From Herbaspirillum sp. LeCh32-8 (GTDB taxonomy: Bacteria > Pseudomonadota > Gammaproteobacteria > Burkholderiales > Burkholderiaceae_D), in assembly GCF_017814915.1 (NCBI RefSeq), contig NZ_JAGIPZ010000006.1:186001-250000 (forward strand): DNA of 64,000 bases, given 5' to 3'. Below the pieces are notes generated by a model, which did not search any database, was not told the origin of the DNA, and worked only from the letters and a program-made list of their open reading frames with translations. The position numbers were made by a program, and so were the translations under genes. This document shows, piece by piece, positions 1 to 45,952 of the stretch (positions within the stretch are counted from its first letter, which is position 1; each line of letters opens with the position of its first letter).

Positions 1-533
1 TGCCCAAGTGGCGCGACGTCGGCATCGGCCTGTGGGAGCGCGGCAGCATCTTCCTGAAGCGCCTGACCGGCGTGATGCTGGCGCTGACCGTGCTGATGTG
101 GGCCATCTGCACCTTCCCCGCGCCGCCGGCCGGCGCCACCGAAGCGGCCATCGATTATTCGCTGGCCGGCCACATCGGCCACACGCTGCAGTACGTGTTT
201 GCGCCGCTGGGCTTCAACTGGCAGATCAGCTTGTCGCTGATCCCGGCCTTCGCCGCGCGCGAAACCGCAGTGGCCACGCTGGCCACCGTGTACTCGGTCG
301 CCGGCGACGAAGGCGTGGGCCTGCAGCAGGCGCTGGCGGCACACATTTCGCTGGCCAGCGCGCTGTCGCTGATGGTGTGGTTCGCCTTCGCGCCGCAGTG
401 CATGTCGACGCTGGCCATCATCCGCCGCGAGACGCAGTCCTGGCGCATGGTGGCGCTGTCCTTCGGCTACATGTTCGTGCTGGCCTACGCGGCCTCCTTC
501 ATCACCTACCGCGTCGCGGGGTGGCTGGCATGA
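1..533 (+). CDS. feoB: Ferrous iron transport protein B, C-terminal part
   Basis: Partial gene; the reading frame enters from the left edge with its first full codon at base 3, and about 176 residues remain. FeoB is the inner-membrane Fe(II) permease with an N-terminal GTPase. Only the C-terminal membrane part is here: three or four hydrophobic segments and the gate-like stretch FAARETAVATLATVYSV, typical of the second FeoB Gate domain. The N-terminal G domain must lie outside the window. The stop codon overlaps the next start (ATGA), so the two genes are probably translationally coupled. The family call is firm; nothing can be said about its promoter. Confidence 0.93.
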   Translation, partial: PKWRDVGIGLWERGSIFLKRLTGVMLALTVLMWAICTFPAPPAGATEAAIDYSLAGHIGHTLQYVFAPLGFNWQISLSLIPAFAARETAVATLATVYSVAGDEGVGLQQALAAHISLASALSLMVWFAFAPQCMSTLAIIRRETQSWRMVALSFGYMFVLAYAASFITYRVAGWLA

Positions 534-38749: not shown

Positions 38750-40537
38750 ATGGCTTCTTTTAGCTTACATGGAATCGCGGTGTCGCAAGGCATCGCCATC
38801 GGACGTGCGCACTTGATGGCGCCGGCCGCCTTGGACGTCAAACATTACCTGATCGCCGACGAGCAGGTCGAGGCCGAGATCGAGCGCTTGAAAAGCGCCA
38901 TCAAGGCGGTGCACGAAGAGCTGCACACGATCCGCTCCGATCTTCCCAAGGACGCGCCGGCCGAGCTGGGCGCCTTCATCGACGTGCATTCGCTGATCCT
39001 GTCGGATCCGATGCTCTCGGAAGTGCCGCTCAACATCATCCGCCATCGCTACTACAACGCCGAGTGGGCGCTGGTGACGCAGATCGAGGAGCTCTCGGCC
39101 CAGTTCGACGAGATCGAGGATCCCTACCTGCGCGAGCGCAAGGCCGACATCCAGCAGGTCGGCGAACGCATCCTCAAGGTGCTCACCGGCAGCGCCATCC
39201 ATCTTCCGCCGACCGGCGAGGCCGCCGCCAATATCATCGTGGTGGCGCACGACATCTCCCCGGCCGACATGTTGCAGTTCCGTGACAGCGCCTTCGCCGG
39301 CTTCGTCACCGACCTCGGCGGCCCCAACTCCCATACCGCCATCGTTGCCCGCAGCCTGGATATCCCGGCGGCGGTCGGCATGCACAACGCCTCGGTGCTG
39401 GTGAAGCACGACGACCTCTTGATCATCGACGGCGACGCCGGCGTGGTGATTGTCGACCCGTCGCCGCTGGTGCTGGCGCAATACCGCGCGCGCCAGGAGC
39501 GCCTGCTGCGCGAGCGCAAGAAACTGTCGCGCCTGAAGAAGACGCCGGCCCTGACCCAGGACGGCGAGCTGATTACGCTCCTGGCCAACATCGAATTGCC
39601 GGCCGACGCTACCACCGCCTGGGAGGCGGGCGCCATGGGGATCGGCCTGTTCCGTTCCGAATTCCTGTTCATGGGGCGCGCGGGCCATCTGGAGAAATTC
39701 CCGTCCGAGGACGAGCAGTTCGAGTCCTACAAGCAGGCGGTGATCGCCATGAAGGGCCGGCCGGTCACCATCCGCACGCTGGATGTGGGCGCCGACAAGC
39801 CGCTGGACGAGGACGAAGAAACCGCGCTGAACCCGGCGCTGGGCTTGCGCGCGATCCGCTACTGCCTGTCCGAGCCGCAGATGTTCCTGACCCAGTTGCG
39901 CGCCATTCTGCGCGCCTCGCATTTCGGGCCGATCAAGCTGCTGGTGCCGATGATGGCGCACGCCTTCGAGATCGACCAGACGCTGGGTATCATCGAGCAG
40001 GCCAAGCAGCAGCTGCGCGAGCGCAAGCAGAAGTTCGACGAAGAGATCCCGGTCGGCGCCATGATCGAGATCCCGGCGGCCGCGCTGGCCTTGCCCTTGT
40101 TCATCAAGCGCCTGGATTTCCTCTCCATCGGCACCAACGACCTGATCCAGTACACGCTGGCCATCGACCGCGTCGACCACGAAGTGGCGCACTTGTACGA
40201 CCCGCTGCATCCGGCGGTGCTGTATCTGCTATCGACCGTGATCTCGCAGGGCCGCAAGGCCGGCATTCCGGTCTCGGTGTGCGGCGAAATGGCGGGTGAC
40301 CTGAAGTGGACGCGCCTGCTGCTGGGGATGGGCCTGCTGGAGTTCTCCATGCATCCTTCCCAGATCCTGTCGGTGAAGAACGAAATCCTCAACAGCGACC
40401 TGCGACTGTTGGAGCCCCAAGTGAAGAAGGTGCTGCGCGCCAGCGAGCCGGCGGCGATCAGTGCGGCCATGGCGCAATTGCAGGCGCTGGCGGCCGAGCC
40501 GGAGGTGCGCGAAGCCAAAGTGGCGCGACGTCGCTGA
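38750..40537 (+). CDS. ptsI: Phosphoenolpyruvate-protein phosphotransferase (EI)
   Basis: A 595-residue EI, the first enzyme of the PTS. The N-terminal domain carries the phospho-His H195 in GGPNSHTAIVARSLDIPAAVG. The C-terminal PEP-binding barrel contains GIGLFRSEFLFMGR, TIRTLDVGADKP, PVGAMIEIPAAAL and the SIGTNDLIQYTLAIDR motif. It starts at the ATG after GCAGGAGATAACGCG. A 263-bp gap after ptsH holds no recognised gene, so ptsI may also have its own promoter. Length is normal (about 575-595). Confidence 0.95.
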   Translation: MASFSLHGIAVSQGIAIGRAHLMAPAALDVKHYLIADEQVEAEIERLKSAIKAVHEELHTIRSDLPKDAPAELGAFIDVHSLILSDPMLSEVPLNIIRHRYYNAEWALVTQIEELSAQFDEIEDPYLRERKADIQQVGERILKVLTGSAIHLPPTGEAAANIIVVAHDISPADMLQFRDSAFAGFVTDLGGPNSHTAIVARSLDIPAAVGMHNASVLVKHDDLLIIDGDAGVVIVDPSPLVLAQYRARQERLLRERKKLSRLKKTPALTQDGELITLLANIELPADATTAWEAGAMGIGLFRSEFLFMGRAGHLEKFPSEDEQFESYKQAVIAMKGRPVTIRTLDVGADKPLDEDEETALNPALGLRAIRYCLSEPQMFLTQLRAILRASHFGPIKLLVPMMAHAFEIDQTLGIIEQAKQQLRERKQKFDEEIPVGAMIEIPAAALALPLFIKRLDFLSIGTNDLIQYTLAIDRVDHEVAHLYDPLHPAVLYLLSTVISQGRKAGIPVSVCGEMAGDLKWTRLLLGMGLLEFSMHPSQILSVKNEILNSDLRLLEPQVKKVLRASEPAAISAAMAQLQALAAEPEVREAKVARRR

Positions 40538-40637: not shown

Positions 40638-40666
40638 TTGACGGAGGTGTCCGACTTGGGTATTCT
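40638..40666 (+). promoter_or_regulatory. Sigma-70 promoter of metX
   Basis: -35 TTGACG (40638-40643), 17-bp spacer, -10 TATTCT (40661-40666). Transcription should start near 40673, three bases before the first helix of the SAM-II-like aptamer, which supports both calls. Confidence 0.7.
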
Positions 40667-40675
40667 TACGTCACT

Positions 40676-40750
40676 GCGCCGATTTGAACGGTTTGACCAA
40701 CCTCAGCTTGCGGGCGCCGGGAGATTGCTCCCATCTAAATGCGGCTAAAG
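40676..40750 (+). promoter_or_regulatory. Probable SAM-II (SAM-alpha) riboswitch aptamer upstream of metX
   Basis: The conserved SAM-II blocks occur in order: P1 5' strand GCGCC (40676-40680), GATTTG (40681-40686), GCTTGC (40706-40711), P1 3' strand GGCGC (40713-40717), TAAATG (40736-40741) and GGCTAAAG (40743-40750). AGCTTGC (40705-40711) can pair with GCGGCT (40741-40746), bulging one U, to form the pseudoknot. Two extra hairpins lie in the variable parts: GGTT/AACC (40690-40702) and GGGAG-ATTG-CTCCC (40719-40732). SAM-II aptamers sense S-adenosylmethionine and turn off methionine genes. It lies between a promoter and a terminator ahead of metX. Recognised by eye; not scored with a covariance model. 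Confidence 0.8.
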
Positions 40751-40791
40751 CGAGCTTGGAGTCAGCTGTTCCTCCCCAAGACCTCGAGACG

Positions 40792-40821
40792 AGCCCGCAA
40801 GCAATGCTTCCGGGCTTTTTT
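40792..40821 (+). terminator. Riboswitch-controlled terminator before metX
   Basis: Stem GCCCG-C-AAGC / GCTT-C-CGGGC (40793-40802 with 40806-40815), one C-C mismatch, loop AAT, then six T. The 5' arm GCCCGCAAGC is the exact reverse complement of aptamer bases 40706-40715 (GCTTGCGGGC), which would form the antiterminator when SAM is absent. The 115-bp stretch from here to the metX ATG has no further signal noted. Confidence 0.82.
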
Positions 40822-40936
40822 GTTGCCCGATCAGCAGGTGGCCAACCTTCGCTCGACGCGAAGCGATCGTCCACGCCCGTTGCAGGCTTCACAGCCCTTG
40901 CAACGATGGACGCCTTGCCACTCAAGCAGAACAATC

Positions 40937-42076
40937 ATGTCGATCGGAATCGTATCACCCCAGGTCATGCAATTCGCCGAGCCGCTCCCCTTGCAGGGAG
41001 GCGCGCAGCTGGCCGACTATTCGCTGACCTATGAAACCTACGGCACGCTCAATGCCGACAAGTCCAATGCCGTACTGGTGTGCCATGCGCTCAATGCCTC
41101 GCATCACGTGGCCGGCGTCTATGCCGACCAGCCCGACAACGTCGGCTGGTGGGACAACATGGTCGGACCCGGCAAGTCGCTGGACACCAACAAGTTCTTC
41201 GTCATCGGCGTCAACAACCTCGGCTCCTGTTTCGGCTCGACCGGGCCGATGCACGCCAATCCGGCCACTGGCAAGCCTTACGGCGCCGACTTCCCGGTCG
41301 TCACGGTGGAGGACTGGGTCAACGCCCAGGCGCGCCTGGCCGACCGCCTCGGCATCACGCAATTCGCCGCGGTGATGGGCGGCTCGCTGGGCGGCATGCA
41401 GGCGCTGGCCTGGAGCATCATGTATCCGGGCCGCCTGCGCCATTGCCTGGTGATTGCCTCCACGCCCAAACTGTCGGCGCAGAACATCGCCTTCAACGAC
41501 GTCGCGCGCCAGGCTATCCTGACCGATCCGCAATATCACGGCGGCGATTTCTACGCGCATGGCGTGGTGCCCAAGAACGGCTTGCGCGTGGCGCGCATGG
41601 TGGGCCACATCACCTATCTCTCGGACGACGACATGGCCGAGAAATTCGGTCGCGACCTGCGCTCGGGCAGCTATCAGTTCGGCTACGGCATCGACTTCGA
41701 GATCGAGTCCTACCTGCGCTATCAGGGCGACAAGTTCTCCACCTACTTCGACGCCAACACCTACCTGCTGATCACCAAGGCGCTCGATTACTTCGATCCG
41801 GCGCGCGAGTTCGGCGGCGACCTGGTCAAGGCGCTGGAGCGTACGCGCGCCAAGTTTCTGCTGGTGTCATTCACCACCGACTGGCGCTTTTCGCCGGAGC
41901 GCAGCCGCGAGATGGTGCAGGCGTTGGTGGCCAACAAGCGCCGCGTCAGCTATGCGGAAATCGACGCCCCGCACGGGCACGATGCCTTCTTGCTGGAGGA
42001 CGCGCGTTACATGAAAGTGGTGCGCGAGTACTACGCAAGCATCTGGAGTGAATTGGGGCAGGAGGGCCGCGCATGA
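40937..42076 (+). CDS. metX: Homoserine O-acyltransferase MetX
   Basis: A 379-residue alpha/beta-hydrolase-fold acyltransferase activating homoserine for methionine synthesis. Nucleophile S150 lies in [13 protein letters not shown], and the catalytic His is in [34 protein letters not shown] is conserved in the family. Whether it uses acetyl- or succinyl-CoA cannot be settled by eye; many betaproteobacterial MetX enzymes are succinyltransferases. It starts at MSIGIVSPQ; the ribosome site is weak (AAGCAGAAC). Its stop overlaps metW (ATGA). Under control of the riboswitch described upstream. Confidence 0.94.
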
Positions 42077-42675
42077 CTTTCAATGAACTGAGCCTGTTGC
42101 GCCCGGACCTGGCGTTCATCGCGCACTGGGTGCGCGAGCAATCCAATGTGCTGGACCTGGGCTGCGGCGACGGCGTGATGCTGGACTACCTGCAGAGCGA
42201 CAAGCAGTGCGCAGGATATGGCGTGGAGATCGACGACGACCAGATCCCCAAGTGCGTGGCGCGCAACGTGTCGGTGATCCAGCAGGACTTGAACGGCGGG
42301 CTCGCCATGTTCGAGGACAACGCCTTCGACACGGTGTTGTGCCTGTCGGCGCTGCAGATGGTCAAGGACGTCGAGGGCACCTTGCGCGAGATCGCGCGGG
42401 TGGGGCGCGAGGCCACGGTTTCCTTCCCCAACTTCGCGTACTGGCCGCACCGTGTGGCGCTCTTGCGCGGGCGCATGCCGGTGTCCAAATCGCTGCCTTA
42501 CCAATGGTATGATACGCCGAACCTGCGCTGCGCCACGATCAGGGATTTCGAGGCGCTGGCCAACGAGGTCGGGCTGGAGGTGCTGGAATGCGTGGCGCTC
42601 AAGGACGGCAAGCCGGTGCGTTATCTGTCCAACTGGCGTGGCAGCCTGGCGGTGTTCAGGCTGCGCAAGAAGTAA
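42073..42675 (+). CDS. metW: Methionine biosynthesis protein MetW
   Basis: A 200-residue class I methyltransferase-like protein. SAM motif [15 protein letters not shown], then [28 protein letters not shown], and the [20 protein letters not shown] block typical of MetW. MetW is always paired with MetX in this lineage, and biochemical work in other bacteria shows it is needed for MetX activity. Translationally coupled to metX by a 4-bp overlap. Confidence 0.94.
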
Positions 42676-44179: not shown

Positions 44180-44265
44180 GGAGAGGTGGCCGAGTGGTTA
44201 ATGGCAGCAGACTGTAAATCTGCCCTCTTACGAGTACGCTGGTTCGAATCCAGCCCTCTCCACCA
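44180..44265 (+). tRNA. tRNA-Tyr (GTA)
   Basis: 86 nt including encoded CCA. Acceptor GGAGAGG/CCTCTCC, anticodon GTA in ACTGTAAAT, T-arm GGTTCGAATCC and the long variable arm expected of a class II tRNA. First gene of the cluster. Confidence 0.97.
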
Positions 44266-44334
44266 TAAGGCCGGGAAGTAAAAAGAAGTTCGCGACAAAA
44301 AGTCGCGGCGGATGTGAAGTGAAAGTTGGTCCTC

Positions 44335-44408
44335 GCGGGTGTAGCTCAATGGTAGAGCTGAAGCCTTCCAAGCTTAAGACGAGGGTTCGATTCCCTTCAC
44401 CCGCTCCA
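44335..44408 (+). tRNA. tRNA-Gly (TCC)
   Basis: 74 nt including encoded CCA. Acceptor GCGGGTG/CACCCGC, anticodon TCC in CCTTCCAAG, T-arm GGTTCGATTCC. It follows tRNA-Tyr by 69 bp, with a CGCGAC/GTCGCG hairpin between them that may aid processing. Confidence 0.97.
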
Positions 44409-44454
44409 AGTTTTGGTTCGGTTGCATGTTTGGTTGTTGTGCAATCGACAAAAT

Positions 44455-44529
<75 letters not shown>

Positions 44530-44610
44530 GTTTTGAGTCGTACGCTATAGCAGGTCAGCAATCGGTCGGGCGTGTTGCCTGGACATTCTCATCAAATTTA
44601 GGAGTCTAAA

Positions 44611-45801
<1,191 letters not shown>

Positions 45802-45876
45802 GATCAAGCAGCAAAACACCTTGCCGCGGTGCGAATTTCGTATCGCGGCATTCGTGTCTCAATCGCGAGTTTTTGT

Positions 45877-45952
45877 AGGGGCGTAGCTCAATTGGCAGAG
45901 CGTCGGTCTCCAAAACCGAAGGTTGGGGGTTCGAGGCCCTCCGCCCCTGCCA
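45877..45952 (+). tRNA. tRNA-Trp (CCA)
   Basis: 76 nt including encoded CCA. Acceptor AGGGGCG/CGCCCCT, anticodon CCA in TCTCCAAAA, T-arm GGTTCGAGGCC. It lies between tuf and secE, as in many Proteobacteria. Confidence 0.97.

Follow-up and report, generated by a model that had tools for sequence, protein, structure and literature searches.

In the window, as we call the whole 64,000-nt stretch of Herbaspirillum DNA analysed here, metX (40937-42076, plus strand, ATG at 40937) is followed by metW (42073-42675, plus strand), which overlaps its end by four bases. The metX product scores best with the NCBIfam model of homoserine O-succinyltransferase MetX (NF047916, 684.7 bits, cut-off 560); with 578.6 bits it passes the cut-off of the acetyltransferase model NF001209 as well. 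The metW product matches TIGR02081 (238.4 bits, cut-off 189.5). The upstream neighbour of the leader is a long ORF ending at 40537. Elsewhere in the window, four tRNA genes are found at 44180-45949, three of them 5' of an ORF at 44611 that we take to be tuf-like and one just after it.

The features of the metX leader are all on the plus strand. A sigma-70-type promoter, TTGACG-17-TATTCT, is located at 40638-40666 (-35 TTGACG 40638-40643, -10 TATTCT 40661-40666) and would start transcription at around 40673; a promoter scan of the region found a single site, where shuffled sequences averaged 0.1. Next is a SAM-II core (40676-40754), in which the P1 helix (40676-40717; GCGCC 40676-40680, GGCGC 40713-40717) encloses loop L1. 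Between the two strands of P1 lie GATTTG (40681-40686), by homology the L1 third strand of the SAM-II triplex, an extra hairpin in L1, GGTT/AACC (40690-40702), the 5' strand of the P2 pseudoknot, CTC-A-GCTTGC (40702-40711, with GCTTGC at 40706-40711), and the P1a base, a G at 40712. Loop L3 has an extra hairpin of its own, GGGAG/CTCCC (40719-40732), and TAAATGCG-GCTAAAGCGAG (40736-40754) comprises the L3 A-rich block and the 3' strand of the P2 pseudoknot, including TAAATG at 40736-40741 and GGCTAAAG at 40743-40750.

Between aptamer and gene, folding gives a weak linker hairpin (40755-40780; CTTGG 40755-40759, CCAAG 40776-40780) 5' of an intrinsic terminator at 40793-40821 (stem 40793-40815, U-tract TTTTTT 40816-40821), whose hairpin folds at -15.7 kcal/mol. 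A terminator scan of the region reported no terminator, probably because of a C.C mismatch in the stem. The terminator 5' arm, GCCCGCAAGC (40793-40802), is the exact reverse complement of GCTTGCGGGC (40706-40715), which overlaps the pseudoknot strand and the 3' strand of P1; the two are candidate 3' and 5' strands of an antiterminator. An earlier note on this DNA, made from its letters, had placed a promoter, a SAM-II-like aptamer and a terminator in this order, and every element it named is where it had put it: the blocks GATTTG, GCTTGC, TAAATG and GGCTAAAG, the closing helix GCGCC/GGCGC and, on recomputation, the exact complement in the terminator arm. The two additional hairpins it had described are those in L1 and L3, to which folding adds the weak third one before the terminator.

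Identity and distribution of the aptamer

The Rfam SAM-II models give no match to the window copy, even at E 10, whether searched in the window region or at its place in the genome. RF00521 (SAM_alpha) has a cut-off of 36 bits, and the 44-bit cut-off of RF01726 (SAM-II long loops) is not reached by the window copy; none of six close relatives scanned with the standard models at E 10 was matched either (0/6). The covariance-model hit that the earlier note had proposed as a check did not, therefore, materialize for this copy. The missing match is probably due to the extra hairpins in both loops, since short-loop homologues do match. A match to RF00519 suhB in the window (18.1 bits, cut-off 41) was set aside, as were the remaining Rfam matches in the region, all below their own cut-offs.

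A descriptor combining the SAM-II blocks with P1 complementarity matches the window once, at 40676, and has no match in any of 300 Markov random windows; it is satisfied by 29 of the 30 loci fetched with RF00521, but its spacers were set wide with this element known. The GATTTG block is likewise found in 29 of these 30 loci. The binding-pocket blocks GATTT, CTTGC and GCTAAA are in order and in register in the window copy, the SAM-contacting bases of SAM-II being in part those of PMC11508383 and PMC6061858. Leader DNA was matched in all 33 genomes of the same genus, in some over part of its length only.

Homologues were sought with a covariance model built from 16 distinct Oxalobacteraceae-type copies. 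The DNA pattern that supplied these copies was too narrow, returning 29 stretches: one from a 'Betaproteobacteria bacterium' and 28 from Oxalobacteraceae genera or bins, some of which we presume to belong to this family. The model has matches in 252 of 399 genomes of the order, representing 116 of 158 genera, and in 7 of the 13 genomes sampled from the family of the window. Many of the listed matches span no more than about 62 nt and have short loops. Of 30 returned loci, 18 were scanned with SAM_alpha: three were above the cut-off (40.4, 40.4 and 37.4 bits), eight more matched below it at the same place and on the same strand, and seven had no match. Run over all 399 genomes, SAM_alpha has matches in 183 of them at E 0.01 and above the cut-off in 69. 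By eye, at least 32 of the RF00521 places above the cut-off coincide, on the same strand, with listed places of the element-derived model; 28 of these were fetched and 26 could be assigned, of which five are before metX (L129, L140, L167, L174, L182), all with short loops.

As judged by homology, then, the window copy is a long-loop relative of RNAs, some of them before metX, that Rfam calls SAM-II. Its membership is claimed from this homology to elements that pass RF00521, not from its own score, and we regard it as very probably a genuine SAM-II riboswitch, with a terminator as its platform, ahead of metX. The SAM-II identity proposed in the earlier note is thus upheld through the homologues above the RF00521 cut-off and through covariation of P1 and the pseudoknot, which it had proposed looking for in relatives and for which 0/500 shuffles were as good (see below).

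The fetched set consists of listed places only (30 loci and 100 regions), which leaves weak matches under-represented; elements were searched for in 28 of the 30 loci and in the 100 regions, 128 loci in all. A first parsing pattern missed 8 of 138 distinct matches, and a slightly different one yielded 151 distinct elements, 145 of them of the first type, among which long-loop copies are over-represented because pattern and model were derived from such copies. The gene 3' of the element is metX in 50 cases, metZ in 53, metH in 13, a metY-like gene in 5 and metK in 4, so that 125 of the 145 elements precede one of these genes; targets were named from blastp against a single reference for each gene, which left 7 of the 145 without assignment. 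In 95 of the 145, the 90 nt ahead of P1 contain a promoter of the form TTGACN-16..18-TANNNT, a raw count made without a random control.

The metK leaders are those of L089, L096, L119 and L121, the product being identified by TIGR01034 at L119 and by blastp at the others. Model matches also occur before genes outside methionine synthesis (L117, L146, L170, L133), where the neighbours include a large protein (no NCBIfam match for the L170 product) and a protein that we take to be HD-like; L117 and L146 have a very long L3, of 79 and 85 nt. At 11 of the 128 loci (L154, L113, L136, L112, L190, L162, L181, L144, L127, L157, L090) a second, weaker match is found downstream of the first match and its terminator, by eye mostly shortly 5' of a start codon. 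Downstream of such tandem copies there are often a small ORF beginning M[FY]DC... (one was tested, with no NCBIfam match) and a MATE transporter, a product confirmed at L123. Tandem SAM-II with mixed platforms has already been published (PMC9481103); the available text of that account does not mention the small ORF or MATE genes.

Covariation and loop hairpins

Covariation was evaluated in an alignment of 110 matches (109 distinct, including 10 weak second-aptamer matches), into which the pseudoknot pairs were written by hand, the covariance model not having been fitted to them. P1 and the pseudoknot together are 95.3% paired; both sides have changed in 6 of the 13 pairs, and 0/500 shuffles, which ignore kinship, were as good on any of five measures. 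In P1, 4 of 6 pairs are changed on both sides, three of these in a single sequence each; the covariation of this helix consists mostly of rare changes plus the outer pair. For example, GCGCC/GGCGC becomes GCGTC/GACGC in L228-L230, and another variant is GCGCT/AGCGC. Within the 16 Oxalobacteraceae-type copies P1 is invariant.

In the pseudoknot, the pair beyond the bulged A is T-A in 86 of the 145 elements, A-T in 13, T-G in 11 and C-G in 3, the A-T copies being spread over five families. This position is 78.6% paired, against 61.2% after shuffling (0/2000 shuffles, kinship ignored). Among the 145 elements no covariation is seen at the two pseudoknot positions that follow or at the second outer P1 pair; several pseudoknot pairs are invariant and thus uninformative, and one is unpaired in 20 of 107 sequences. 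The P1a base between GCTTGC and P1 is a G paired with C in 143 of the 145. By eye, this pair is A-T in the RF00521 comparison loci, which belong to different classes of the phylum, presumably the Alphaproteobacteria. Among the betaproteobacterial copies there are one A-U and one C-G. The P1a Watson-Crick pair is the pair predicted in the available text of a mutual-information study of 2007 (PMC2258182). In these alignments, the P2 pseudoknot is supported by one clearly covarying pair together with the P1a pair.

The pairing of the extra loop hairpins was assessed in the 16 copies, their stability in the distinct long loops. In the L1 hairpin, 93.7% of cells are paired and 2 of 4 pairs are changed on both sides, and it is energetically weak, with 10 of 25 distinct long L1 loops beating 95% of their shuffles in stability. 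In the L3 hairpin, 78.2% of cells are paired and 2 of 5 pairs are changed on both sides; it is a common feature, since 46 of 56 distinct long L3 loops surpass 95% of their shuffles in stability. Long forms of both loops occur together in 24 of 50 metX elements, all 24 from the family of the window or from the Oxalobacteraceae-derived pattern, and in 2 of 13 metH elements. This double insertion plausibly explains why Rfam misses the window copy.

The expression platform

An intrinsic terminator is found within 260 nt after the element in 137 of the 145 cases, corresponding to 125 distinct hairpins. The 5' arm contains CCCG in 116 of these 125. Control terminators were taken from these loci and from the window, their arms having nearly the same G+C; 47 of 424 have CCCG, as do 28 of the 249 whose arm G+C is at least 60%. 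The controls may include reverse-strand images of element terminators, which would also carry CCCG and raise the control value. The complement of CCCG is the CGGG at the P1/P2 junction. For the window copy this complementarity extends to ten pairs, a length of aptamer-leader complement reached in 16 of 2000 leader shuffles, and the ten pairs are kept in 17 of 24 Oxalobacteraceae-type elements, the other 7 keeping only 5. Averaged across the elements, complementarity to the aptamer strand is barely above control (4.61 vs 4.08 Watson-Crick pairs; 5.56 vs 5.53 with G-U). Only CCCG is distinctive across elements, and the longer complementarity is not general. Pairing of GCTAAAG with the terminator arm was considered as a second antiterminator strand and is absent in the window; it reaches at least 6 Watson-Crick pairs in 21 of the 125 hairpins, against 2.4% of control pairings, and may act in some families.

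Folding of the nascent RNA of the window gives the antiterminator a probability of 0.86-0.91 in transcripts ending at 40804-40810, while P1, in a program that does not handle pseudoknots, is at or below 0.08 in transcripts ending at 40796-40810. At equilibrium the terminator has a probability of 1.00 without ligand from 40816 on, and when the P1 and P2 strands are held in the folding the terminator is free to form. Since the terminator wins at equilibrium without ligand, the switch would have to be kinetic.

RNA polymerase would make the aptamer first. At low SAM, GCTTGCGGGC (40706-40715) would be free and pair with GCCCGCAAGC (40793-40802) once this was transcribed, and the antiterminator would delay the terminator until polymerase was beyond the U-tract, so that metX would be read. 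Once SAM was bound, 40702-40717 would be held in P1 and the P2 pseudoknot; GCCCGCAAGC would then pair with GCTTCCGGGC, and transcription would stop before metX. We consider a SAM-II aptamer with SAM-induced kinetic termination ahead of metX the best explanation of the locus, and are highly confident of it. The compared sequences and the folding models show aptamer identity, pseudoknot, terminator and complementarity, with its conservation; from these we infer that SAM is the ligand, that it turns the gene off and that the steps follow in this kinetic order, and SAM-dependent termination is probably kinetic. The terminator/antiterminator platform of the earlier note is borne out by the terminators after 137 of the 145 elements, the CCCG arm rule and the folding of the window leader.

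Relation to described RNA families

The claim that a betaproteobacterial SAM-II of this kind would be new is not supported, as such riboswitches with terminators have been in print since 2005/2007. Bordetella is a betaproteobacterium. The 2005 description of SAM-II includes Bordetella bronchiseptica in its organism figure and, in the text available, has promoters just 5' of P1 and terminators 3' of P2 (PMC1273637), and a paper of 2009 places it, in its available part, in Alpha-, Beta- and Gammaproteobacteria (PMC2704228). Moreover, Leyn et al. (2014, PMC4239095) reported an element, metXZ, before metXW or metZ in 35 betaproteobacterial genomes, with no ligand named in the text available. A conserved element with a terminator before metXW or metZ in betaproteobacteria is also what is found here, and very probably the same element was reported in 2014 under that name, without being called SAM-II. 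The Rfam-match table of a Herbaspirillum RNA survey (PMC7011215) is without SAM-II in its available part, and the available text of PMC12452182 has nothing on SAM-II in betaproteobacteria; PMC10853860 (spermidine), followed as a lead, concerns SAM-I. No paper joining metXZ or RF02424 to SAM-II was found among the main texts of the open-licence literature.

RF02424 (Bp2_287, cut-off 70 bits) has no match in the window. Three of the 399 genomes have a match above the cut-off, in each case with the riboswitch on the opposite strand (L228, L229, L230). Among the best 20 RF02424 matches, compared by eye with the riboswitch places, 17 overlap one, all on the opposite strand; the other 3 have no listed place for comparison. 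Read by eye in the alignment, RF02424 starts as the reverse complement of a terminator and continues into that of the aptamer. One RF02424 match in an E. coli control genome passes E 0.01, and the match in G024 is not at the metX leader; weak matches may be due to chance. From its sequence, RF02424 looks like the reverse complement of riboswitch and terminator. In the portions available, Bp2_287 appears together with RIT77 among the expressed RNAs of B. cenocepacia in the table of a review (PMC10987360), and a Herbaspirillum RNA survey lists it for H. hiltneri (PMC6337395).

That the functional RNA is the sRNA of RF02424, on the opposite strand, would agree with the matches on that strand in relatives and with an RT-PCR product reported in B. 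pseudomallei (PMC3521395, text available). We give this next to no weight: pseudoknot, promoter and terminator are all on the metX strand, the family reads by eye as a reverse complement and misses the window, and its own authors, in that text, suggest Bp2_Cand287 as a cis element before methionine genes (Khoo et al. 2012). It is very unlikely, if somewhat less so, that the element is a separate metXZ RNA with its own fold and no assigned ligand, only resembling SAM-II. Leyn et al. published metXZ as novel and, in the available text, state SAM_alpha only in Rhizobiales and Rhodobacterales, and the window copy falls below the Rfam SAM-II model; against this, homologues before metX and metZ are above the SAM_alpha cut-off. 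Moreover, region 3 of metXZ, partnerless in that text, would be the conserved GC-rich block that forms the pseudoknot strand in SAM-II register and covaries at one pair plus P1a, the region match being drawn from the text of the paper.

The strongest competitor, though still improbable, is an aptamer that binds SAM while the terminator is constitutive or a processing site and control is exerted at the promoter or through mRNA stability. Equilibrium folding, which favours the terminator without ligand, is consistent with this, as is an available account of S. meliloti in which the terminator after the metA SAM-II riboswitch is not predicted to be SAM-responsive and promoter activities change. 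By contrast, the CCCG 5' arm recurs across families and is complementary to the P1/P2 junction, and at high SAM in S. meliloti the metZ riboswitch sRNA is reported, in the part available, to go up and the read-through mRNA down.

What is new here is that the window element, metXZ and, on the opposite strand, RF02424 look like one thing, that the targets include metH and metK, and that Rfam misses the window copy. Taken together, we think it likely that the Betaproteobacteria share one SAM-II subtype, in which the P1-adjacent base is nearly always G and the CGGG junction offers a constant toehold to CCCG, the motif at the start of nearly every downstream terminator; that this is a main SAM-sensing switch of the group (metX, metZ, metH, metK, metY-like genes and the MATE locus with tandem copies); that metXZ and RF02424 are this riboswitch; and that the double-hairpin Herbaspirillum-type form is a branch missed by current models. 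An orphan candidate, metXZ, would thereby gain a probable ligand, a database sRNA family, RF02424, is suggested to be on the wrong strand, and standard models are seen to miss the SAM-II copy of the window. The riboswitch field would gain a simple expression-platform rule, the CCCG arm, rather than a new class.

With SAM-II RF00521, the window copy shares the GATTT, GCTTGC and GCTAAA blocks, P1, the P2 pseudoknot and the association with methionine genes, as well as a promoter just before P1 and a terminator after P2 (PMC1273637, text available). It differs in its extra L1 and L3 hairpins, in having G-C for A-U at P1a and in scoring below the Rfam threshold; its P2a appears to be short, with a bulged A, whereas most SAM-II have a longer C-G-rich helix according to the available text of PMC6061858. 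Like the window element, metXZ (PMC4239095, as described in the text available) precedes metXW or metZ in betaproteobacteria and has six conserved regions, a pseudoknot and a terminator-antiterminator. In that text, however, it is given without ligand or SAM-II connection, with a partnerless region 3 and as one copy per genome; the match rests on genes, taxa and description. RF02424 Bp2_287 (PMC3521395, text available) shares loci, terminator and aptamer in relatives, but is modelled on the opposite strand and labelled an sRNA. RF01726 (PMC2864571) is by name a SAM-II with long loops, listed for Bacteroidetes and marine sequences. SAM-V has a closely similar pocket and pseudoknot with a short P2a (PMC6061858, text available), but differs in its translational control and its marine taxa.
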